Source: Tubiluchus corallicola | Lineage: Eukaryota; Priapulida; Priapulimorpha; Priapulimorphida; Tubiluchidae | NCBI GenBank assembly: GCA_030141605.1 | Contig: JAQGDQ010000056.1 | Location: 558,001-622,000, forward strand | Reading direction: 5' to 3' | Length of the DNA: 64,000 nucleotides | In this document: piece after piece, positions 863 through 28,376 of the stretch | Position numbering within the stretch: position 1 is the stretch's first letter | Layout of the letters: each line of letters begins with the position of its first letter | Program-made: the position numbers and the translations under genes | The notes under the pieces: generated by a model | The model's input: only the letters and a program-made list of their open reading frames with translations | Told to the model about the DNA's origin: nothing | The model's database searches: none

Positions 863-1083
863 TCACTCACCTGGGCATACAGGCTTCTGTCCTTGCACTC
901 TAGTATTTATGAACTGGGCACCAGATGAATCTACACAGTAACATGTTCCATCATAAGGATCACACTGAATTTGCTCATAATTGCTTTCAGCATCACAGAA
1001 CGGAGTGGAATCCTCTAATGGCGTTGGAACATCTTGGAATCTTGTATCTTTCTGAGCATTGGAAGCCCTTTCTATTTGGCAAG
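863..1083 (-). CDS. Inhibitor gene exon 17: intact thyroglobulin type-1 domain and C-terminus
   Basis: Six-cysteine thyroglobulin-1 module with QIQCDPYDGTCYCVDSSG and a closing KPVCPG. Unlike exon 3, the third and fourth cysteines are kept. Reading on gives PGE and a stop at 865-863, followed by AATAAA. A GTGAGT at 870-865 could instead act as a phase-1 donor. The acceptor lies in a 27-bp tandem duplication. Confidence 0.75.
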
Positions 1084-4000
1084 CTAAAAAATTGTTATGT
1101 TATTGGTAAGCTAAAAAACTGTTATGCTATCGGCCAGATAACTATGTGACATTTGAAATAACAAAGCTGGAATGGGAGCGTTTATTTATGAATAAATAGG
1201 TTGAAGCTGCTATCCTCCTCTTTAGAAAAATCATAGTTGGTTGTTTGCAATTAGCCGGAATGCGTGTTGTTGATTTCTGATTTGCCTTAGAAATGAACAG
1301 CATAAAAATAACAGCATCTATACTGGCACTGGGTGATTTTACACCTCATTAGCTTGCAATGAGCAAAAGTCAACACATTGGACACACAAGAGTAATGCTA
1401 CCATACATTGAAAACACAGGGAAAAAAAGTCACATGAACAAAGAAATATATCATTAATAATATGTGCTACCTGAAAGCTCATCGGGAATCCAGCAAAGAT
1501 TCACTCCACAACCTTCAGCTGTGCAACACTTCTCAATCCCTTTGCAGTCTGCATCAGTGTCGCATTTACGCAAACCCAAACACTCGTCTCCCATTAACCT
1601 TGACAGATCTGGGCAAACTCCAGGCTTGTCATCCACATCAGCTAAAACCAAATTTTCAAGTGTGTGTGTGGCATATCATTATAGTTTAGACACAGCACTA
1701 GTGCAATGCTATCAACAAAAGCAGATTTTAAAACATGTATTACAATAACCCTGACAACATGCGCAATAATGACTTGTAGACAAAATATCATAAGTGCTCT
1801 CCACACTATGATATTTTTTGTGAGAGAAGTAATTCTTCTTCTGCTGCTGCGTCTATTAATTTTGCCTAATTGCATCTGTTTTATTCGAACAGTGGTTTAA
1901 TAATTTAGCAATTATGTTGTAAAAGAGAATAAGTAAATCATAATATCTATAAATATACATGTATATGTATACCGTTGCAGCGCGTGATACAGTCCAGAAA
2001 TGAGACAAAATTGTTGTCATTGCCTCCACAGCCCGTGTAGACAAATCGTTCACATTTTCCTGTAGCCGAGTTGTGAAACCATCGTATACTGTACTCACCG
2101 CATAAACCAGTATTTAATGGCTGGTCACAGTAATCACCCTGCCGAGCTAAAATAATAGATATTTATCTTCATTGTAAGAAAGTTCACCAAGTTTTCACAA
2201 CTAGTTTCGTGCGGTTGAATTAGTATGTATTAGAAACATTTTATTTCATGAAAGCTGAACAAATTTTGGTTTGATAGTATGTCACTTATTAAAGAAAATT
2301 TTGAGTAGAATGACGTTGCACGAAATGAATGCATAAATAGCTGCTTTTTGAATACTGCCGTGCCATCAATTGTAAGTTTTTTGTATTTAAGAAAATCCTT
2401 AGACTTATTAGAGTATTTTTTATTGGTTAAATTTGCTGGTAGTTTTTCGATTTGCAGTCTGCTTACGTGCACACTGCTGGCGACAAGCTTCATAAGTTTC
2501 GAAGTTATTCTGTGTTCCACCACAGCCACCATAGATAAATCTCTGACATTCTTGAGTGTCTTTGTCATACCACCAGCGTGGAATGTATGCTAGACAGGAG
2601 AATGCACCAGTATTTGTTTGCTGAGGTTGCTCACATACAGGTACATTGGTTTCTGGTTCTAAAACACAAAAACAGAATAGTGATTACACCTTGTAACTGA
2701 AGTTCTATACTCTCATCGTTTGAGCAAAAACTTACACAGATAAAATAACTAAAATTAAGCACAATTATTTAATGGAATATTTTTTCCAATAGGTAATGCT
2801 GTTATTTTAAAGTATTGTAAGCATGGAAAAATTCTGTTTGGAATGTGAAGAAGCATTTCAAAAATTACAGCACTACCTTCCTTTAATTCTCGAAGACAGA
2901 ATCTTATAAAGTGAACTTAGTTTCAAATGACAGGCCCCATTTGACAGCATTTTTACCTCACCACATATTTGTGTAATACTTGATGTTGAAGTAATAATAG
3001 CCAAGAAGCTTTTTTTAATATGTCATGATTGCTACCATCAGTCAATGGTCTAAAAACTCATTTTTGCATAAATATGCTTAGATGACTGTATTTATTTTTG
3101 CATTGTTATAGCTATTATAGCTGCTAACTAAACTCCTTATTTTAAAACCAAAACGTTTAAAATAGCAAACTGAACAGTATTTCTATTATAATTTTAAATC
3201 AGATCACCCAGAAAGTAATGAAAATTGGTACTGTTGATCGCTTATATATTTTAGTTTACAGTAACCAGTGAAAAAACATTGGAACTTGGCTAAAATAATA
3301 AACCCAATTCACAGTGTTACCTCAGAATTATCACGTGAGAGAGGGCAAATATTAAAAAAGCAGTAAAATGGAAGTTAAACCATCTAAAATTATTTGCACC
3401 AGTGGTTCGTGCTGTTACAATGAAATTTTTTCGAAGTCAGAAAATTTTTAGGATAGCACATGCTCTATTATTATTATATACTATTGTCAACATATCAGTG
3501 ACTTGACTTACCATTTCCAGTACTTCTAGAAGAACACTGACATGTTCTACATCCATCTCTGTCATATATAAAGCTAGTGCAAGACTCGGTATTTTGTGTG
3601 CATGTCTGGTCAGGACAACGTTGTTGTCTGTCATTTGAGCAAGTGCATTCGAAACAGCCATTACTGACAGCTAGTCCATACTCACATTGAAGACTACAGG
3701 AAACTATAGGGCAGTCTATAAAATAAAAATTCCAATTTTTGTGCATGAAAAATTTATTTTTCAAACCTGTACATTAATTAACATAATTTTCAGGAACGTT
3801 AATTTTCCATGGTTGTCTGAATGGTTGAGATGCTTATAACGCACTCAATTTTCAAAGCTTCAAGCAACCAATGAAAATGTTGGATAAATGGTTTTCTGGG
3901 CATTTTTATTGAGTATTAATTTTTTACTAGTACACAAAACTAAATGATACAGTGCAGATATAGTGAAGAAATAAAAGTGGATACAGTTTACAGAGAATCC

Positions 4001-7000
4001 TCGACAGAGAATATAATGAATTTATCAATAGTTGCATCAACACAAAAATCTCTGATCCTTGTCTACTTGTCGGCAGATTAATAGTGGTGCTGATTACTGC
4101 TCACTAGTGTGGCTATGTTAGTTTTGTCTACTCATCAGCTTTTAATTTTCACATAAAATAATTAACAAATCTCAGTATAATTCTAATGCCGGGTTATTAC
4201 CACTTTCATTTTTAAATTAAAAAAATTGGTTATGTCAGCCACATGCAAACCAATTGGATGTTGTATGTTGCTATTAGTAGGCCGATTGTTTCAGTTTAGA
4301 ATCATTGCAATCAATGTATGAAATTCATTACAAATTCATTGCAGGCAACCCACATTTGCTGATTTAAACTGAGACTAGTAGTAAAAATGCAATAAGCACA
4401 GATCTTGTTGTGGAGAATTCCCAAAGCTCATTTGCGAAGTAATTTGAATAAAAAAGATAGGTTTAGAACTGTTTGTACAAGCTGAGGTCATATATTAATC
4501 GATTTAATAAAATTGTTTCTGGGACTGCTAGCTAACATTTTGTTATTACCATAGAATCAACATTATCTAGGTTTATTACCAGCAACATCGCTGTCTTCGC
4601 ATTCACATAATCTGCATCCATTCTCATCGTATTTATATGTGGCACAACCTGCCCTGTTGTTTCTCACTCGGCACCTAAAAGATGGACAGTCACGCCTTGT
4701 ATTATCTTCAGAGCAGGAGCAAAAGAAACAACCATCACGTTTCTCTGCCAAGCCATTTCTACACTCCAGATTGCAGTTAATAGCAGAGCAAACTGAAAAA
4801 AACATCATGATTAATAAGGATAGTTTAATGCTCTCCTTGTTTTTAAAGCAGGTACCGAGACTATGCTGAGCTTTTTGTATATATTTATTTGATACATATA
4901 TAAGCAGCACAATCATGTATAGTAATAATAATTTACATAGTTTAATATTATGCGACTTCTACTGTAAACAGGTCGCAGACTATGCCAGTCCTAAATGGTT
5001 TGTAGAACACACTCCTCTCTGTATTCTGTGCCATTAATAACTATTATATTTCTACATAAAATCTGCGAGCAGGGATTAAGGAATTTAAGAAAAATTGGAA
5101 AAATTATGTTAGGTTTGGATACCTGAATATTCACTTAACAGGGCTTTACAAATTTGGGTAAAAAGCTTGATACTAAATATTTCATTTTTTGCTAACATAA
5201 GATAGCAAAAGAACTATTTCCTACTTACTACCAGTATCAAGCGAGAAGCCTTCAATGTCGCTTTTGGCGCATGAACATGTTCGACATCCATTCGCATCAT
5301 ACTCATAGTTGTCACAGTTTCCACTGTTTGGTCCTACGACACATTTAAAAATTGGACAGCCTTGCCTCGTTTTGTCTTCAGAACAAGAACATGTAAAACA
5401 CCCTTCTTTTCTTGCCAAACCATAGTCACACTGCAGGCGACAGAATAATGGAGGGCAGCCTGTAAAAGAGCATTCTAGCATTGAATTACTTGTTGCCACA
5501 AAAACAGTTGAAGATTTCTTCAACATTTAGATTAGATGTTAGTAATTAACAACAGATAACTTTTTCAAAATTAATTATAGATGTTTATTAAAAAAATTAT
5601 CATTCCCAAATGTGACTAAGCATGGATTCGATACCAGAGCACCATGAGCCCAATGCTATACCAATTATTGTATAATAGTTAGTATACTAGTGTTGAGAAA
5701 TGCTATTATGTCATAATTGATTCATGGTTCAAACAGTAGTGTAGCTGGGGGGGGGGTGTAGGAGGCGGTGCACCCCGGTTTTCAGAGCGCAGCATTTTGA
5801 GCAAGTGCAATGAAAAATTTGATTCTGTCAGATAAAAAAACCGACAATTTAATTTCTGCGAAAATGATGCTTACAGGGCTTGTGAAGATGATAATTAGTA
5901 ATTAATATGATAATATTTGTAACAGTTTGTCTTTGTTGACAAAGTTTCTGTAAGGTACACATTTTGATTAACTATAGAATACATTTATAGTCACGCTTGT
6001 AGCTGCAAGCTTATCACAGATTATTTACATAAAATTCCACATGGGTTTTAATGATGTGCTTGTCACTGGCATTTGGTTTCTTTAACACAGATGTTATTGC
6101 AATTACATTGTTATTATTTGCATAATAATGATTGTGATTCAGTGGCTTCTTGGCTCACCAATGTAGTTTTAAGAATTTTTAATTTTGAGTGCCTTTTAAC
6201 AATGTACTTGTCACTGGCATTTAGTTTCTTTAACACAGATGTTATTGCAATTACATTGTTATTATTTGCGTAATAATGATTGTGATTCAGTGGCTTCTTG
6301 GCTCACCAACATAGTTTAAGATCTTTTGAATAGCACCGTCAGAACGTGAATAATTGACATAAATACTTGTGAATCTATTGACTAGTTCATGAACACTAAT
6401 CTTAACTTTATTTCTGGAATATTTTGCTGACACTAAAATTTTAGCTTTCTTCATTCAACTGTTAAGAAGTTCAAAGTTCCGCATTAAATACAGCGGCCTC
6501 TTACAACTCTTAAAGTGTTACACTTTGAAGAAGCCTTTCAGTATCTTAACTTTTGAGCTTTGAAACATATAGAGTGAATTTATTTTTTTACAAACCGATT
6601 TTTTTATCTTTTCAGTAATACTTTTTTTATTTTAAGAATTTACATCCGCAACTTATTGCAACTACGGGGTAACACAGTTGAATTTTACAAAACTAAAATT
6701 TTCCTACATAAAAATTTCCATCGGGGGTGGGGGCGGGATGAGCGCCACTTTCAAGTGTTGCTTCGGGTGCCAAAAGATCTTGCTACACCATTGGTTTCAT
6801 AGCATTGGATTCATAGTTCGCTGGTATTGAACCCAGGCCTAGTTGCATCTTTTCTAATATCCAGTCCTTAAAAGCACCGAATGATTAATGCTTGGTAAAA
6901 CTCATGGTAAAACACTTGAATCACATTACGGGCAAATATATGATTTTTTCAGTAATTGATCCAGTTGATCTCTAATGTATGCTTTTAAAATTATTCTGTT

Positions 7001-10000
7001 TAGTATTTATTTTTCCCCAATACTCAAAGTGAAATAGAGTTTCATACACCATCTGGTCTGGGAAACTGCAATTCTGGAATTGCGGTACTTAAGACTATAA
7101 AGAAATTTGTGACCACTGGTAAAAAGTAGAGCACAGTATTTCAGTCGAAATCGATGTGTGCATAAAGTCAGACTTGCATGCAATGTTAAGTTTAGAAATG
7201 TGGTACCTGCTGCACTTCATATATAGTCTGTTCCTAAAGAAATGATGGCTAAGGACTTGCCTTTAATAAGAACATTGAGAAATCTCGATTTCCGTATTTG
7301 TTATTTTGAAACAGTCGATTATGAAATAAGTACGTGAATATTTATGCGAAACAGCAAATGGAAACTTTGCAGTAGAATCAATGCAGATGTCTCAGTACTT
7401 CTTCGATGGCTATAATAGCACCATGGTATGTACCTCAAAGTAAGACGAAAAAGACAGCAGAAGAAATTAAGGAAGAACAACTTTGCATCACCTGATTCCT
7501 CGTCTTCTAAGACACTTGTCATGACCTCCGTGAGCGAAACGCACTTGCAAGTTTCACATCCATTCTCATCTTTAGCTCTTCCCATCAGACAGAAGTTTCG
7601 ACATTCTACTGGCTCACACCGAGGCTCTAGACATTTGCAAACATCATATCGATCAGAATCTGATTTCAGCAACATTTTATTCTGGGTAGGAGACTGGTTT
7701 ATATATTTTTGGAAAACACAAACACAAGTTGCAGCCAGTTTCATCTTGTTTGAATCAATATGCTCATTTTTGCATGTCTTTCCTGGACAAGGTTCTGGCA
7801 TAAGGCGGACTGTTTTAGATTATTATTAGTCAGTGACTTTTAATGTCAAAGCTGTGGCAAGTTAGTGTGCAGAGTTTTTTTAAGCTTACCTTTTACAGTG
7901 TCGACTTCTTGCCTTGTTTCCAGGCATTCGCATGTGTCACAATTGTTTTCGTCTTTTGCACGCCCACCCTCACAGAATAATCTGTTACAATAAAAACAAG
8001 TATATACATGTAACAGTTTTGCCATTTTTACCACAGTTTGCAGCACAATTTCGAAGTAACTAAAAACTGGATCTCATTGGTGTAAGATCCAGCTAAAACA
8101 AAAGTGAGAATCTTTAGAAACCCACTCTTGTTTTCCAATGGGTTTTCAAAATTTGAGTAAAAAATTTTGCATTGTGTTCGTGAGCAGTACTATTCAAAAC
8201 CTTCCATCTCATTTCAGTTCTACTTTGCACATGGAAATGCAAGAACAGGATGTAGTTATAACATGTAGACAATGTTTCTGACGTGGACAGAAACTGAAGA
8301 TTTGAAAGCTATAATTAAGATTTTATTGAAATCACAATGACTGATTACACAGAAACTACACTTCACAATGAAATCTCAAACTTGTGACTTTTCAACACGT
8401 GACCTGTGGGTCAGGGATCAACCAATCTCGGTGTAACTTATACCATTCAATTTGTGTGATTGAGACCTTTCATTTGACGTATTACAATCTAGGTTTGGCC
8501 GACATTGTAAAGCATTTGTCTAATTGACCCCTATTTGCTCCCTAGTGGGGTCATATGTTAACCAGTCTCACTGTAACCTATACCATTCGGTTCGCTTCAT
8601 CGCGACCTTTCATTTTGGTATGCTATAAGATACCAATGTTCGACACTCCATGCATTTCTGTTTCGCGATGCCCATTTTTCAGTTTAATGTGGGTATCCAC
8701 AATTTTGCATTATGGCCGGAAGTTTAAAGCTTGTCAGCCTTTTAAAACCCAAGTTCCCATCTACCTCACAAATACTTGTGAAAAATATTGAAAAACCTAG
8801 GAGGCATTCAGTCATAATCATAAAACTGACCAATGTCCACTGCCCTTCACCCCTTGACCAGAGGTCAGAGGCCAACATACTGCTGTGAGTTTCATGACCC
8901 TAGCTTGCAAGCCTAACAAGTTATTAAGCGAAATAAATGTGGAAAATAAATAACAAATAAAGAAAGAGCCATATGAGAACCAATAAGATTTTGCTATAGC
9001 AAAAAAGGTGACAAAGTTAGGATGCAGCCTGGATTTGAACCAGGAATCTTCTGCTAAATTGCAGATGCATTAATCACTAGGATGCCACATCTCCCAGTTG
9101 TCAAAGCAGTCCAACTGGCCAACCATTTTAGCTGGCCAATTTCAGCATTTCTAATATTAGCTCGCTCACACTAGGGCATGTCTAACTAATTAGATTAATT
9201 TTCTATTTTGAGTAATTTTGAGCCAGGAATTTCCATGGGTGATTAATTAATTGTTATAATGTTAATGTCCAAGTAGTTATGGTTAGCCTAAGTACATGTA
9301 GTACCTGGGAATGCACAATAATACTGGATTTCAAGCAATTTCTGTGAAATTATTGTGTCAAAGCAAATTATTTACCTGCATATTCTTGGTGTACAGTGTG
9401 ATGGCAAGTTTGGATTAATGGTTCCCACACCGATACAAGTTGGCACTGGATCACAGTGTTCTTTTTTACAGACATCATCTTTTAAAGCACAGACTTGATC
9501 TCTGGGACATGCAAATTCCTAAAAGCCAAACCAAATGATTTTAAACAGAAACAGCAGCACAAGTTTCAAAAACTTTCAAGTCAGCTGCCTGTATGGCTAT
9601 AGTTGCATTTCAACATGTAGTTATTTCTCATGGAACCTTAAAAATTTTTATATTATGCAAATCTCTCAATGACTCACATTTCCCATGCCAATCAGTATGG
9701 AAAAGCTAATAATAATAATAACAACAATAATAGCGTAGATCTTTTTACTCCCAAAACTGAACATTAATAAGAAGTTATAGATCTATGCTCTTATGTGCTG
9801 GGACAGGTGACCCGTGTTGGCTGTTGACAGCCTGTTGTGAGAAAACAAGATGGTCAACATATAGCTTCACAATTAGCTTGTGATTCTTTATAGATAATTA
9901 AAATTCCTCACTAAATGAAGTTATTTAAAAATAAAATGAGTGTCGATGATGCTGTCTCCTGAGTCTCATGTTTGACACCTTGAGGATCTTGATATTCGAC

Positions 10001-13000
10001 AAAAGGACATTCCTGTTGGTCAAATTTTGTTGTTCAGGTGCCTCTTGGTCAAAATGGGTTTTTCAAGCCTAGATTTTATTCAGATTTTTGGTCATTATTG
10101 ACAATTTTCAGGATTCCTACATATGACCTCTGACCCCAGGGTCACTGTAGGCCATCGGCCAAATGTTCTCATCATTATCAACACACAACGTTCTCAATAC
10201 TATTTGCACTTGTTCAAATCTGGATCTGCCCTACTTACCTTAGAGGAAAGGGCAAAACATTTTGGTAAATGATGAAATGTCTATGTCTCACCACCTGTCA
10301 CAGTAATCTGGTTTATTTAATAAAAATTAATGCTGAGCTATTTGTACTAAATTTTGACTGTTTTATGCATACTTTACCAATTCATTTTGTTGATGGTTCA
10401 ACTTATAATATTTCTGGGAAAGCTGGTGGGTTGCCAGACAGACTAATCCCTCAAACCCTCCTTGCTACATCCATCAATTCATGGTTACAGCTACTGCAAA
10501 CTATTTTAGTACTGATTAACACACTGATTGTATTTTTACACAAGTTACTAGGCACATTTCTGCAAAATTAACAAATTAAAGCTAAGCTAATAGATCCCTA
10601 TACATCAGGAATGATAGCATTATTACAGTTTTTTACCGCACACAAATCATCTGGAGGCAGCGGAATACACGTAGGTACAGGTGGTCGACATGGCGCCATT
10701 TTGCAGATCACTTCTTGCAATGCACATACTTCGAAAGGACGGCATTCAATGTCCTACAAATTATACAGCATCATACAAATGACTAACATTAGTACAGAAA
10801 AATTGTCAGTGAGGCAAGTTTTAAGCAGAGTGTAGTTTGCTATTAATACTCTCAATTAAGACTGCTATTAAGACTCTTTTTTGATGAGTTATAATGCATT
10901 ATGTATCAATTTTTGAGTTTAAATATGGCAAAACTGAAATAAATAAGCCACTCTACAATGAAAGTAAAAAATTCATTTTGTCAAATTTAACAAATGTAGA
11001 CACTAACTTCACATGTTAGTTCTTTTGGTTCATCTATTGGCACACATTCTGGAACTGGATCACATGGAGCCCTAAAGCAAAGAACTTGCTGTAGTCGACA
11101 CTCTGTTCCTGCGTCACATTTTATATCCAAACAAGATGGCTTCTTTGCCTCTGTTTCTGAAACATTCAAAAAGAGCATGTACTTAAAAATCAGCAGTAGA
11201 AATAAAAGCTAGCATTTGCTTTTACACATAGTAGAAAGTGGCAATTATATTATTGCACTTTATACAATTTGTATAATTTTGCTTTCAGGTTGGTTAATGG
11301 CAATCTATACATAATGATCATGACAATAAAAAACATAGATGTACAGAAAAGCCTTTCGCTCATTAGCTCACAAGCCATTAGCAACAAACTAATGCATCAA
11401 TAAGAGCACAAGAATGTTAAGCTTTTTAAAAGCTGATGAATTGTAGTTCTCATGCTTTACTAACTTCAACGTGGTTTTTGTACTTGAACATTTCTGAACT
11501 TTCTTCATCATTTACCATAAATGCCCAAAAATATAACATTCATTTATATTTTTTTGGCTTGTTGATTTGGATAACTAGCTGATTCTGGAGGTTTGACGTT
11601 AGTAACATCAGGTCTGAAGATGGGGGTCAATCACTGCTTAAAATGTCTTTCATTTGAACAAAACAAACTGATATCTTACCAACACATTTAATCAGTTTTG
11701 GACACAAATCGCTGATGCATAGTGCGTCTTCTAAGATGCACTCTGATTCAGGTGGGCAACCAGAATTCTGAAACAGTGAATCCCCAATTTAAAAGCCAAC
11801 CTTAAAAGAAAGTGAAATTGTGAACAAAGATTTAATGACATAGCTAAAGCTTATTAAGAACCAATAAAATTTTGTAAAGTATGACAAAAATTGTTAAGTT
11901 TTTGTCTTGTCTTATATTTTTTTTACCCATAAATTCAGTGGAAAGCTCAGTACCTTGCAGGGGTGTGGCTTGCATTCGCATGTGGGACAGCCATCTTCGT
12001 CGGTTTCGTATCCATGTTCACATGGATCGCATTGTCCGATCTCATCGCATGGTGCCGAATCTTCAAATAAATATCGCTATTAATGTCAGTAATCCAAAGC
12101 GATATTTTATTGATCAGCGACTTTGCTGTAGCAGTGCAAAACATATTGGTTTTGACGAGGAATTTTGATTATTTCCCAAAATTCACCAACGAATAAAGCT
12201 AAATCAGCTTATTTTGATTATTATGCAGGTTTGAAGTATGTCATTTGGCTCTTCACATCAGCTGGTGCCCAATTAAGGATGTGTAGAGAAAGAGTAGGAA
12301 GTAGGGACACACTTCCAGGGTTTTGCTGGCTACCTATTAGAGCTGGCTTTTATAGCATTCAAAATACACATACCTGAATCACAGCGAGGGCGTCCTCTTC
12401 CAGGTGGCGTTCTTGTGAAAGGAATTTCGTTTCCTTGTGTATCAACACACCAGGAATAACCTGTACTTCCGTGAAACTGAATCTGCTGATATTCTCCGCT
12501 ATCTGTGCATTGAGGTTGGTATGAACCAATAGGAGGTAAAAGCTGTGAATTTAAATTAACTACCTGGCAAGCTAGAAATAAAAATGCAACAGTGATTATA
12601 CAATGTGAAAATTATCCATAATAGATAAAAATTCAGTAGTGAAAAAATAGATAGTTAAACAGCTCAACATAATTATAATAAATAAGGAGTACACAAAAAC
12701 AGGGCACAATTCTTCAAGCTAAAATATGTGATTGTGATAATTAGATTTTCTAAAGAAAAAAAAAGCAATTTGCAGGAGGCAATAAGAAGACAATTTGGAG
12801 TTCCATAAACAGAAGACAAGCAGTAGGCCTAGATACGATAATCATGTATTTTGTAACATGTCTCTCCAATCATAATTTCTACCTATATTTTGGCACTTTT
12901 GTTAATAGAAAGTTCACATGAAAGCAGCGCTGTGGAAAAGCATTCAACAGTTCTTTTACTTGTATTGTTAATTTACCTGTTAAAGCCGGTTTGCTACAAA

Positions 13001-14581
13001 CATGACAAACTCCACTAGCTGATGGACAACAAAGCTCCTCGTGTGAACAATCGTTTGATGATCTACACGTGTTTTCACAGTTCGTTAGACTAGCAGGACT
13101 TTGGCATGTTCCTTGCTTGTTTATTTTATTATCTGAATTTATTAAAAAAACGAATATGTTTTCAAAATCTAATTAAAAGTTATCTTAATTATTTGTAGGC
13201 AATTTTCCTAATTCATATATCAGGATATTGCACATAAGATTAAAATTATTTCCGAGAAGTCGTCTTTTTCTATATGCATTAAGAATCCAGAAGTGTGCAA
13301 CCACTGCGCTTTCTATGTAAATTAAAGAAAAGCTAAAGACTTGCGTCTGTGACTGTGATAGTTGTACACGATGAGAACTAGAGATTCTACGTTGAATGCG
13401 TTTTTAGTTCTGTTTTATACAGAAGAGAGAGAAAACAGACACTAAGAGAGCCACTTTTGTAAAAGTCATTAAAGAATAAAAAAACTCGAAATCAAAATTA
13501 GGTTTCACTTTTTACAGGCAGTTGGTGGTGCATACCATAGGGCCCTGACCAACGTAGTGAATTTAAGGTGCTGATGATGTACAAAACAACTAAGTGTTGT
13601 TTTTAAGGTATATTGTGCACCATTTTGCCATTTGAAAATCCTAAAGTCTAGATTAGTATAAAGGGGCTCGAGCAGTTAGATGAATAGGGCTGTACTCGCC
13701 TTGACCTTTATTAGTGCTGTGAGAATAAGTGAAACTTTGTTTGCAAACTACGCAGAAAAGTTTTGAAGTGTTTACCAAAAAGAAACTTGGTGAAATCTGC
13801 GATGCGTGTAGCCTAATTTAATACTTAACACGAAAGACAAGTGTGAAATTAATGTAAGTTTAATGTAATAATAACGAATAATAATATTACATAAATTATA
13901 AAAAAACAAAAGAAAGCAAATGTCAAATATAATGAAATATCGTAAGCAATTACAAAACCAGATATGAACCACAGCTTTTCGTGAGAAATATACCACTTTT
14001 TCCTCACTGTTAAAAAACGCACGAATAATCGACCAACAAGCAAATATTTCTGAGTCTGTGTTACTCACATTAGAGTGATGCAAATTAATTTTAATTAATG
14101 AGACTTATTTGCAAAAACGTTATTGACGTTCTAACATAATTTATAATAGCTACTAAACGCTTAGCATGAGTAAAAAATTAATATCAGGTTGTAATCAATT
14201 GACATGACGGTATTATTTATACAGGCCTACATGTGGGCTTGTAACGCCAATATGGCAAGTTCAAATCCATGCCATTCTCGACATTTTTTCTTTATTTCGA
14301 ATTTAGTTTTTTGGAATTGGGCCTATATTTAATTAATGAAAGCTTATTTTAGCATTCTAACAATATATAAGCTATTAGAATATTTAGGCTTGAACGTCAG
14401 TTTTGTGTTTAAGACAGTTACTGTAATTGGAGTTATAGTGGACCTTACCAAATACGTCAGGTGGAGGAGGTATGCTTCCTCCTAGTCCTCCTAGTATACC
14501 GCCGATGACACTCTGGGCACGCGTGTTTAAAGCTATCAGCGTCAAAATAAGCGCACACGAAATGCAGCTCTTGCTGTTCAT
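863..14581 (-). CDS. Secreted mosaic protease-inhibitor-like protein (WAP/Tg1/antistasin/Kunitz), 17 exons
   Basis: Exons, minus strand in transcript order: 14581-14449, 13132-12977, 12571-12374, 12060-11954, 11767-11680, 11156-11008, 10753-10637, 9518-9376, 7981-7890, 7809-7492, 5459-5232, 4792-4580, 3715-3512, 2658-2467, 2146-1973, 1641-1471, 1083-863. All junctions are GT-AG and phase-consistent, giving 2904 nt (967 residues plus stop). The start is the ATG of a clear signal peptide (MNSKSCISCALILTLIALNT, probable cut after TRA), so the protein is secreted. Domain order: WAP, degenerate Tg1, antistasin-type, four Cys-rich repeats, antistasin-type modules, two Kunitz, WAP, Tg1. These families mostly inhibit extracellular proteases, so a multi-headed inhibitor or matrix protein is inferred. 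From exon 10 on, every module is bounded by phase-1 introns. I do not recognise a named orthologue. The exact end is uncertain because TGA at 865-863 overlaps a possible donor. Confidence 0.85.
1081..1134. repeat. 27-bp tandem duplication covering the exon 17 splice acceptor
   Basis: Two adjacent copies, starting at 1081 and 1108, differ at a few positions. On the minus strand each copy carries a T6-AG acceptor, so the real acceptor (exon base 1083) has a decoy 27 bases upstream. Confidence 0.8.
1471..1641 (-). CDS. Inhibitor gene exon 16: WAP domain 2
   Basis: 57 codons with the full eight-Cys WAP pattern: KPGVCPDL, GDECLG, KCDTDADC, then KCCTAEGCGVNLCW. The first half resembles a canonical WAP module more closely than the exon 2 copy. 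Phase 1 at both ends. Confidence 0.85.
1973..2146 (-). CDS. Inhibitor gene exon 15: Kunitz domain 2
   Basis: 58 codons with six cysteines and the core CERFVYTGCGGNDNNF. The P1 position is Gly (TGLCGEYS), unusual for a canonical Kunitz inhibitor and suggesting altered or no serine-protease inhibition. Phase 1 at both ends. Confidence 0.85.
2467..2658 (-). CDS. Inhibitor gene exon 14: Kunitz domain 1
   Basis: 64 codons. All six Kunitz cysteines are present, with core WWYDKDTQECQRFIYGGCGG and closing CRQQC. The residue after the second Cys (the P1 position, by analogy with BPTI Lys15) is Leu in FSCLAYIP. This suggests chymotrypsin- or elastase-like rather than trypsin-like specificity if it is inhibitory. 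Phase 1 at both ends. Confidence 0.85.
3512..3715 (-). CDS. Inhibitor gene exon 13: double antistasin-type module
   Basis: 68 codons, phase 1 to phase 1, with CPIVSCSLQCEYGLAVSNGC then FECTCSNDRQQ, and a second half CPDQTC...FIYDRDGCRTCQC. The third tandem sister of exons 11-12; donor GTAAGT. Confidence 0.8.
4580..4792 (-). CDS. Inhibitor gene exon 12: double antistasin-type module
   Basis: 71 codons, phase 1 to phase 1, with INCNLECRNGLAEKRDGC then FFCSCSEDNTR, and a second half CPSFRC...YKYDENGCRLCEC. The same order and spacing appear in exons 11 and 13. The acceptor is a long T tract ending in CAG. Confidence 0.8.
5232..5459 (-). CDS. Inhibitor gene exon 11: double antistasin-type module
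   Basis: Encodes CPPLFCRLQCDYGLARKEGC FTCSC and then CPIFKC...YEYDANGCRTCSC, two antistasin-like half domains. It is a sister copy of exons 12 and 13. Two donors three bases apart are possible (ending at 5232 or at 5229, the latter followed by consensus GTAAGT). Both leave phase 1 and differ by one codon. Confidence 0.8.
5734..6793. mobile_element. Probable non-autonomous hAT-like element
   Basis: The left end reads CAGTAGTGTAGCTGGG and the right end, reverse-complemented, reads CAATGGTGTAGCAAG. Flanking 8-bp sequences GGTTCAAA (5726-5733) and GTTTCATA (6794-6801) agree at six of eight positions, as expected for an aged hAT target duplication. G-rich tracts sit just inside both ends. No transposase frame was seen. 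It lies in the intron between inhibitor exons 10 and 11. Confidence 0.5.
6059..6318. repeat. 148-bp-period tandem duplication
   Basis: Two copies of a stretch of about 112 bp (6059-6172 and 6207-6318) start with CTTGTCACTGGCATTT and differ at only a few bases, so the duplication is recent. It lies inside the hAT-like element. Confidence 0.85.
7492..7981 (-). CDS. Inhibitor gene exons 9-10: antistasin-type modules with long linker
   Basis: Exon 9 (7981-7890) encodes LFCEGGRAKDENNCDTCECL. Exon 10 (7809-7492, 106 codons) encodes a Cys-poor linker of about 55 residues and then a sister motif, CRNFCLMGRAKDENGCETC. The repeated GRAKDEN-x-C-x-TC core shows the two modules are paralogous. Exon 10 is open throughout, so it is called as one exon, though a small unspliced intron in the linker cannot be excluded. 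Confidence 0.75.
8270..8911. repeat. Dispersed repeat, copy 1
   Basis: Shares a common start (CAATGTTTCTGACG) and end (GTGAGTTTcATGACCCTAGC) with the stretch at 22978-23890. Internal units of about 115-140 bp carry CCTTTCATTTGATATGC-like cores. It lies in the intron between exons 8 and 9 of the inhibitor gene. No coding frame or terminal inverted repeat was seen, so its class is unknown. Confidence 0.7.
9015..9100 (-). repeat. tRNA-like SINE head or tRNA pseudogene
   Basis: On the minus strand the stretch resembles a tRNA: an A-box-like segment TGGCATCCTAGTGATTAATG and a B box GGTTCAAATCC about 45 bases later. A clean seven-pair acceptor stem could not be formed by eye, so a tRNA-derived SINE is more likely than a functional tRNA. 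Confidence 0.45.
9376..11767 (-). CDS. Inhibitor gene exons 5-8: four small Cys-rich repeats
   Basis: Exons 11767-11680, 11156-11008, 10753-10637 and 9518-9376. Each carries a similar unit: Cys, a C-x6-C step, then a Cys in a V-x-C or A-x-C context, and P-C-x-PVP-x-C. Examples are CRLQQVLCFRAPCDPVPEC, CALQEVICKMAPCRPPVPTC and CALKDDVCKKEHCDPVPTC; the exon 5 copy is the most divergent. Exon 8 also starts the antistasin-type module completed in exon 9 (CTPRIC joined to RLFCEGG across a phase-2 intron). Intron phases vary here, unlike the 3' half. I do not have a confident family name for this unit. Confidence 0.75.
11954..12060 (-). CDS. Inhibitor gene exon 4: antistasin-type Cys motif
   Basis: Short exon encoding CDEIGQCDPCEHGYETDEDG and then CPTCECKPHPCK. 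The spacing C-x2-C-x-G-x-DEDGCPTCEC resembles the second half of an antistasin domain. Enters in phase 1 and leaves in phase 0 into the Cys-rich repeat exons. Confidence 0.75.
12374..12571 (-). CDS. Inhibitor gene exon 3: degenerate thyroglobulin type-1 domain
   Basis: 66 residues aligning with thyroglobulin-1: C1 in ACQVV, C2 in YQPQC, then QIQFHGSTGYSWCVD and a closing RPRC. In the family the core reads QCH...CWCV; here the third Cys is Phe (QFH) and the fourth is Ser (SWCV). These two form one disulfide in intact domains, so one whole disulfide is missing. The fold is still recognisable. Phase 1 at both ends. Confidence 0.85.
12977..13132 (-). CDS. Inhibitor gene exon 2: WAP domain 1
   Basis: About 52 residues with the eight-cysteine four-disulfide-core pattern: single Cys, then three more single Cys, an adjacent pair (ELCCPS), then the closing GVCHVCSKP. 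WAP domains commonly inhibit serine proteases or act as antimicrobials; the specificity is not readable here. Phase 1 at both ends. Confidence 0.85.
14225..14285 (+). repeat. Weak tRNA-like fragment
   Basis: GGGCTTGTAACGCC followed by a B-box-like AAGTTCAAATCC resembles the 3' half of a tRNA-derived repeat. No matching 5' half was found. Confidence 0.25.
14449..14581 (-). CDS. Inhibitor gene exon 1: signal peptide and Gly/Pro linker
   Basis: Encodes a 22-24 residue hydrophobic signal peptide ending in NTRAQS, then a glycine-rich stretch (GGILGGLGGS) and PPPP. The donor is TTTG followed by GTAAGG, phase 1. The split codon G+AT gives Asp, joining DVF to DNKINKQG of exon 2. The next exon is 1.3 kb away. 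Confidence 0.8.

Positions 14582-26341: not shown

Positions 26342-28376
<2,035 letters not shown>

Follow-up and report, generated by a model that had tools for sequence, protein, structure and literature searches.

A 64,000-nucleotide stretch of the genome of the priapulid Tubiluchus corallicola (assembly GCA_030141605.1, contig JAQGDQ010000056.1, forward-strand positions 558,001 to 622,000; here called the window) carries the first 17 exons of what we take, with moderate confidence, to be one minus-strand gene of about 28 exons and 27.5 kb, predicted to encode a secreted 2,232-residue multi-headed extracellular inhibitor, chiefly of trypsin-like serine proteases. The joined model spans 27,459 bases of genome in 28 exons, and its product has 276 cysteines. 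The strongest evidence that the exons in the window are part of one larger gene is a paralogous locus on another contig, C2314, which keeps the same domain order across the point at which the protein had been thought to end.

Gene structure and the disputed junction

The 17 phase-consistent exons that a sequence-only reading had proposed were borne out at window positions 871-14581 on the minus strand. Their borders, read in three frames, agree in phase throughout, with AG acceptors at exons 2-17 and GT donors at exons 1-17. Reading 30 kb past the window edge revealed that the chain extends for 12.9 kb on the same strand and comprises 11 more exons outside the window (exons 18-27 and a tentative exon 19b; C1961:545123-557581). 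Past exon 17 the order is antistasin, a cysteine-rich (CR) repeat, WAP, Lustrin-type repeats, Kunitz, an exon with 14 Kazal domains, two WAP, two Kunitz and a stop codon. An AATAAA motif (C1961:544818) follows the final TGA in exon 27. The 27 introns of the model are mostly in phase 1 (21, against five in phase 0 and one in phase 2), and all but one have GT-AG borders (26/27); the remaining one, after exon 22 (C1961:553731-553934), is likely a GC-AG intron (CAG|GCAAGT).

The sequence-only reading had let the protein end at position 863, closed by a WAP-Tg1 pair. Exon 17 ends TGC CCA G|GTGAGTGA, which read straight through gives a TGA at 865-863. This TGA, however, constitutes bases 6-8 of the intron that follows the donor CAG|GTGAGT. 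When splice sites were ranked by a leave-one-out score against all GT or AG sites on the gene strand of C1961:528101-573000 (45 kb), this donor fell in the top 0.16% of GT sites. With the stop codon inside a strong donor and 11 more exons following, the proposed end is probably not the true one, and the bracketed WAP-Tg1 architecture is most likely an artefact of the window edge. A window edge combined with a stop codon inside a donor can thus suggest a false architecture.

Profile searches of the whole genome with Tg1, WAP, antistasin, Lustrin and Kazal models, whose counts are lower bounds, pointed to related loci on contigs C2314 and C1692. Local hidden Markov models (HMMs) were seeded with domains of the C1961 gene and some of C2314 and C1692; E-values at these loci are therefore partly circular, while order and strand are not. 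On the minus strand of C2314 the domains run WAP, Tg1, antistasin, CR, Tg1, antistasin, CR, Tg1, antistasin, CR, CR, CR, antistasin and then Kunitz, Kunitz, WAP, Tg1, antistasin (recognised by eye, missed by the HMM), CR, WAP, Lustrin, Kunitz and a Kazal array. C2314 is colinear with the C1961 gene from the earlier Kunitz domain of this pair through to the Kazal array, and by eye the intron phases match for the counterparts of exons 17-19 and for that of the next WAP exon. The order is thus kept across the exon 17-18 junction, which is the best evidence that the two exons belong, most likely, to one gene.

Some observations weigh against a single gene. Exon 18 has an unremarkable acceptor, whose score is matched by 12.9% of AG sites. 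An AATAAA lies 26 bases beyond the TGA, and an open frame with Met codons (C1961:557684 and 557630) and a leader-like stretch, MYCIAAGLFHFLLNIL, directly precedes exon 18, a combination present in just two of the 27 introns (before exons 18 and 12). Two genes could account for these features, or a short isoform, with a first protein ending at the in-frame TGA and a second secreted protein starting just before exon 18. We consider this unlikely. The TGA sits inside a near-perfect donor, AATAAA or ATTAAA is common, being present in 23/27 introns, and the hydrophobic stretch overlaps the acceptor region, whose pyrimidine-rich sequence often translates into Phe and Leu. A spliced leader exon was sought in the exon 17-18 intron and none was found. 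Moreover, the C2314 paralogue keeps going in matching order: the donor of its Tg1 exon at the junction is in phase 1, the frame read through past it stays open for 13 codons, and no Met lies in an open frame before its antistasin exon.

Within the single-gene model, exon 19b is tentative. The phase-1 end of exon 19 does not fit the phase-0 start of exon 20, and the model therefore requires an extra piece. Exon 19b restores the frame, and its acceptor is in the top 2.9% of AG sites. Its donor is weak, with 16% of GT sites scoring as high, which tells against it; it is backed by a short NEEP motif common to the paralogue (19b starts ENEEPQ, the C2314 WAP exon PNEEPE). The resemblance suggests that 19b and exon 20 may represent the paralogue's WAP exon divided by a later intron. 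Another exon 20 acceptor, which would dispense with 19b, scored -3.1 versus 11.5 and was rejected.

Domain composition

Six pieces of the joined model, with 19b left out, were scanned against Pfam with filters that discard most weak matches. Curated cut-offs were exceeded by Kazal (PF00050; 14 stretches, E 6.1e-144), by Kunitz (PF00014; five domains with the six-cysteine pattern across three pieces, E 9.8e-33 for the exon 14-15 pair), by two Tg1 domains (E 4.7e-14 in exon 3 and 7.4e-11 in exon 17) and by antistasin (PF02822; eight stretches with 56.5 bits in exons 6-13, and 24 bits in exon 4). Given the E-values of Tg1 and Kunitz, the domain matches are not due to chance. In addition, the exon 1-5 piece matched the p41 fragment over its Tg1 domain (E 1.2e-9). 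The leader-like stretch of exon 1 was judged by hydropathy (2.96) and by eye.

The domain list of the sequence-only reading (leader, WAP, Tg1, antistasin, CR and two Kunitz domains) was thereby confirmed, with both Tg1 domains, antistasin, both Kunitz domains and the second WAP domain over their cut-offs. Its first WAP domain, in exon 2, has the eight cysteines, but reaches 15.9 bits against a cut-off of 20.8. All five WAP domains (PF00095) have eight cysteines by reading, three of them displayed cleanly. Two Pfam results count against the assignments made here: only the WAP domain of exon 16 exceeds the cut-off, that of exon 2 falling below it and those of exons 20, 25 and 26 not being reported, and the Lustrin repeats (PF14625) of exon 21 reach 20.4 bits in two stretches. 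As the cut-off of 27 is not reached, these repeats are labelled Lustrin-type only.

The CR repeat, present in 20 copies across the loci examined, mostly follows the pattern C-x5-C-x6-C-x4/5-C-x5/6-C, and at the antistasin-CR junction a further leading cysteine is supplied by the preceding exon. No Pfam family matched it at E<=10 with a tool whose filters drop most weak matches, and the prokaryote-centred NCBIfam gave nothing at E<=1. Among PDB sequences, the likeness is confined to the first half of the repeat and concerns a cysteine-rich eggshell membrane protein (whole-chain E 8.2e-6, single repeats >=0.55) and a 27-residue toxin chain (E 2.1e-4). Both resemblances probably reflect a common cysteine pattern. 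A predicted structure of exon 6, built from four sequences (predicted local distance difference test score 73.5, predicted template modelling score 0.43), had no PDB fold match at E<=0.001.

Reactive sites and proposed function

The position of P1 was assigned by alignment with hirustasin for antistasin (E 0.036), with Kunitz inhibitors, and with rhodniin and ovomucoid for Kazal domains, the P1 positions of these inhibitors serving as the reference. Among the 14 Kazal domains P1 is Arg in six, Ala in four, Thr in two, Leu in one and Glu in one; the five Kunitz domains have Leu, Gly, Arg, Gly and Tyr in turn. Arg also occupies P1 in the antistasin units of exons 9, 10 and 11, the second by alignment with hirustasin and the others by cysteine spacing, judged by eye. 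Thus, ten heads (six Kazal, one Kunitz and three antistasin) have an Arg at P1 and, because of it, suit trypsin-like enzymes. These residues would speak more for an inhibitor of serine proteases with many heads than for a protein that is structural alone. To be set against it, P1 is unpromising in two of the five Kunitz domains (Gly) and in three of the 14 Kazal domains (two Thr, one Glu).

It appears rather doubtful that the product is a structural matrix component (of a shell, cuticle, egg case, tube or mucus) built of disulfide-bonded domains as stable, cross-linkable modules, with any inhibition a by-product or a safeguard of the matrix. Multi-domain proteins with WAP and antistasin domains occur in limpet shell matrix (PMC3374290). 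Lustrin-type repeats, below cut-off, are present in the model, and of 47 Lustrin matches across the genome 33 fall on C2314, the contig of the paralogue; these counts are lower bounds, and four of the matches read as Lustrin-WAP pairs. For a structural role, however, Arg at P1 in ten heads would be superfluous, and no long acidic or Gly-Ser-rich stretch was noticed on reading the model.

A multi-headed secreted inhibitor, as the sequence-only reading had proposed, therefore still appears to be the best reading, to which the extended gene would add 14 Kazal and three Kunitz heads. All 28 exons would be spliced into a single message. The predicted chain begins with WAP, Tg1, antistasin, four CR repeats, an antistasin array, two Kunitz, WAP, Tg1, antistasin, CR and WAP, and would continue with two Lustrin-type repeats and a third by eye, Kunitz, 14 Kazal, two WAP and two Kunitz domains. 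The heads would present substrate-like loops to serine proteases. Those with Arg at P1 (6/14 Kazal, 1/5 Kunitz and the antistasin units of exons 9-11) would block trypsin-like enzymes, and the four Ala and one Leu Kazal heads together with the Leu and Tyr Kunitz heads may be directed at elastase- or chymotrypsin-like targets. The two Kunitz heads with Gly at P1 are probably non-inhibitory. The rest of the chain may act as a protease-resistant spacer that raises avidity. Of the several protease classes suggested earlier as targets, serine proteases are supported by the P1 residues and cysteine proteases weakly, as one of the two Tg1 domains has all six cysteines. Cathepsin-like cysteine proteases may be targets of the six-cysteine Tg1 in exon 17 and are less likely ones for the Tg1 in exon 3, which is two cysteines short.

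Related loci and the repeated cassette

Beyond its Kazal array, C2314 continues with Kazal domains mixed with WAP and Lustrin, and more Kunitz domains lie at 67.9-70.1 kb. Between 66 and 151 kb (72-99 kb not covered) the contig carries a very large one-strand run of related exons with many Kazal and Kunitz domains. The whole run may be one gene, a candidate reading. On C1692, the plus strand has WAP-Tg1-antistasin-CR three times, followed by a Kazal domain, in 40 kb with 2,465 N; the first unit yielded no antistasin, and the two leading CR repeats, which are divergent, were read by eye.

An uninterrupted open frame of 4,706 codons (C2307:112786-126903) encodes a CUB-like N-terminus (by eye), about 24 EGF repeats and about 41 WAP domains with Tg1, antistasin and CR, and ends in a hydrophobic helix and a short cysteine-rich tail (by eye). 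A Pfam scan of its first 3,333 residues found no Tg1 at E<=0.01, although the genome search with Tg1 and the local HMM find Tg1 there. WAP-Tg1 open frames of 1,954 to 6,684 codons, known from their WAP-Tg1 parts alone, were also seen on C859, C2138, C1755 and C1730.

The earlier statement that the same pair stands at both ends of the protein was imprecise, as the two Tg1 domains differ in cysteine type. In known Tg1 structures the third and fourth cysteines form a pair; both are missing from exon 3, whereas exon 17 keeps all six. A tree was built of 20 Tg1 domains taken from these loci; no branch in it reached the starred level, and exon 17 pairs with the corresponding C2314 domain (support 90/87) and not with exon 3. 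The third and fourth cysteines are absent from 16 of the 20 domains, exon 3 included, and kept in exon 17 and its C2314 partner; of the remaining two, one is truncated at the exon start. The subtype without these cysteines occurs both in the genes with many exons and in the giant frame of C2307.

As judged from domain order, the repeated unit is WAP-Tg1-antistasin-CR rather than WAP-Tg1, and it recurs on C1692 and in the giant C2307 open frame. The C1961 gene has two copies of this unit, which do not resemble each other closely. We tentatively raise the possibility, for which we claim low confidence, that this cassette is a single evolutionary unit of this animal lineage that was multiplied as exons in the mega-inhibitors of C1961, C2314 and C1692 and, intron-free, in giant cell-surface proteins, such as that of C2307 with its EGF repeats, WAP-Tg1 arrays and putative membrane anchor and perhaps those of the four other contigs. 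If so, soluble and membrane-bound protease shields would use one common module. If the proposed reading of the gene is right, the C1961/C2314 pair and the giant uninterrupted frames provide a case for studying the shuffling and amplification of domain cassettes.

Two neighbouring features of the contig were noted. Lustrin-type matches and one Kazal match lie on the plus strand at C1961:492-506 kb, about 39-53 kb from the gene end, and are perhaps a neighbouring related gene on the opposite strand. A short open frame on the minus strand at window positions 26345-26491 resembles the ribosomal end of what we take to be ubiquitin-RPS27A. Elsewhere in the genome, one let-7 match (62.5 bits, gathering score 53.5) points to a probable bilaterian. 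Mollusc haemocyanin and annelid linker families gave no match, a result without weight as the controls did not match either, and a search for COX1 found none.

Table 1. Exons of the gene model. Plain coordinates are window positions; those prefixed C1961 lie outside the window.
Exon	Content	Position	Strand	Evidence and remarks
1	Start codon, hydrophobic leader-like stretch	14449..14581	-	Donor GTAAGG, phase 1; in-frame stop just upstream of ATG
2	WAP, 8 Cys	12977..13132	-	Pfam 15.9 bits, under cut-off 20.8
3	Tg1 without third and fourth cysteines	12374..12571	-	Pfam E 4.7e-14
4	Antistasin-type, first Cys of next repeat	11954..12060	-	Pfam E 5.6e-5, 24 bits
5	CR repeat 1	11680..11767	-	Seed of local HMM; no Pfam match
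6	CR repeat 2	11008..11156	-	Reading, local HMM
7	CR repeat 3	10637..10753	-	Reading, local HMM
8	CR repeat 4, start of antistasin unit	9376..9518	-	Phase 0 to 2; local HMM
9	Antistasin unit; cysteine spacing places Arg at P1	7890..7981	-	Pfam
10	Antistasin unit, Arg at P1	7492..7659	-	Pfam; hirustasin alignment E 0.036
11	Two antistasin-type units; cysteine spacing places Arg at P1 in the first	5232..5459	-	Pfam, local HMM
12	Antistasin-type units	4580..4792	-	Pfam, local HMM
13	Antistasin-type units	3512..3715	-	Pfam, local HMM
14	Kunitz 1, P1-P1' Leu-Ala	2467..2658	-	Pfam; C2314 domain at equivalent place also Leu-Ala
15	Kunitz 2, P1-P1' Gly-Glu	1973..2146	-	Pfam
16	WAP, 8 Cys	1471..1641	-	Pfam E 1.6e-7, 31.9 bits
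17	Tg1, all six cysteines, ends at donor CAG|GTGAGT	871..1083	-	Pfam E 7.4e-11
18	Antistasin	C1961:557469-557581	-	None reported by Pfam
19	CR repeat	C1961:557243-557330	-	
19b	Possible 56-nt linker, tentative	C1961:556713-556768	-	
20	WAP	C1961:554721-554916	-	By reading
21	Two Lustrin-type repeats	C1961:554163-554570	-	Pfam 20.4 bits, below cut-off 27
22	Third Cys-rich stretch, Lustrin-like by eye	C1961:553731-553934	-	
23	Kunitz	C1961:553058-553219	-	Pfam
24	14 Kazal domains, 2,034 nt	C1961:550222-552255	-	Pfam
25	WAP	C1961:548820-548993	-	By reading
26	WAP	C1961:547240-547398	-	By reading
27	Two Kunitz domains ending in TGA	C1961:545123-545481	-	Pfam

Comparison with known systems

A literature search, mainly of open papers, found no title or abstract with a protein of this domain order. 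Papilin is marked by TSP1 repeats and a PLAC domain, neither of which was found in the Pfam scan of the pieces. Partial likenesses exist to several other systems. WAP arrays as in the present model occur in abalone perlwapin and in the limpet shell matrix proteins Lotgi1|239125, a major constituent, and Lotgi1|201804, a minor one, the limpet pair with antistasin-like domains in between (PMC3374290). The limpet proteins are shorter (about 85 and 103 kDa for Lotgi1|201804 and Lotgi1|239125), and the accessible part of that paper mentions no Tg1, Kunitz or Kazal domain in them.

WFIKKN, or GASP, unites WAP, Kazal-type and two Kunitz domains in one chain, and its listed organisation is without Tg1, antistasin or Lustrin (PMC3427181). 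A growth-factor antagonist of this kind, in which inhibitor folds are used for ligand binding, would share these three domain families with our model; it is nonetheless a very improbable explanation, as the Ig and NTR domains of WFIKKN were not found in the Pfam scans of the pieces.

Lustrin A has Lustrin-type cysteine-rich repeats, to which those of exon 21 are similar below the Pfam cut-off. It also has a WAP-like C-terminus. In contrast to Lustrin A, the predicted inhibitor contains many other inhibitor families and has no Gly-Ser-rich region that could be seen in the model. In rhodniin and other inhibitors with several Kazal domains, these stand in tandem and have the C-x-C spacing found in our model, whereas here 14 Kazal domains are encoded in one exon inside a larger mosaic. 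Should our interpretation be right, a single chain can combine numerous inhibitor heads whose folds are unrelated. All its domain families except CR are well known; their combination and its scale seem to be new.

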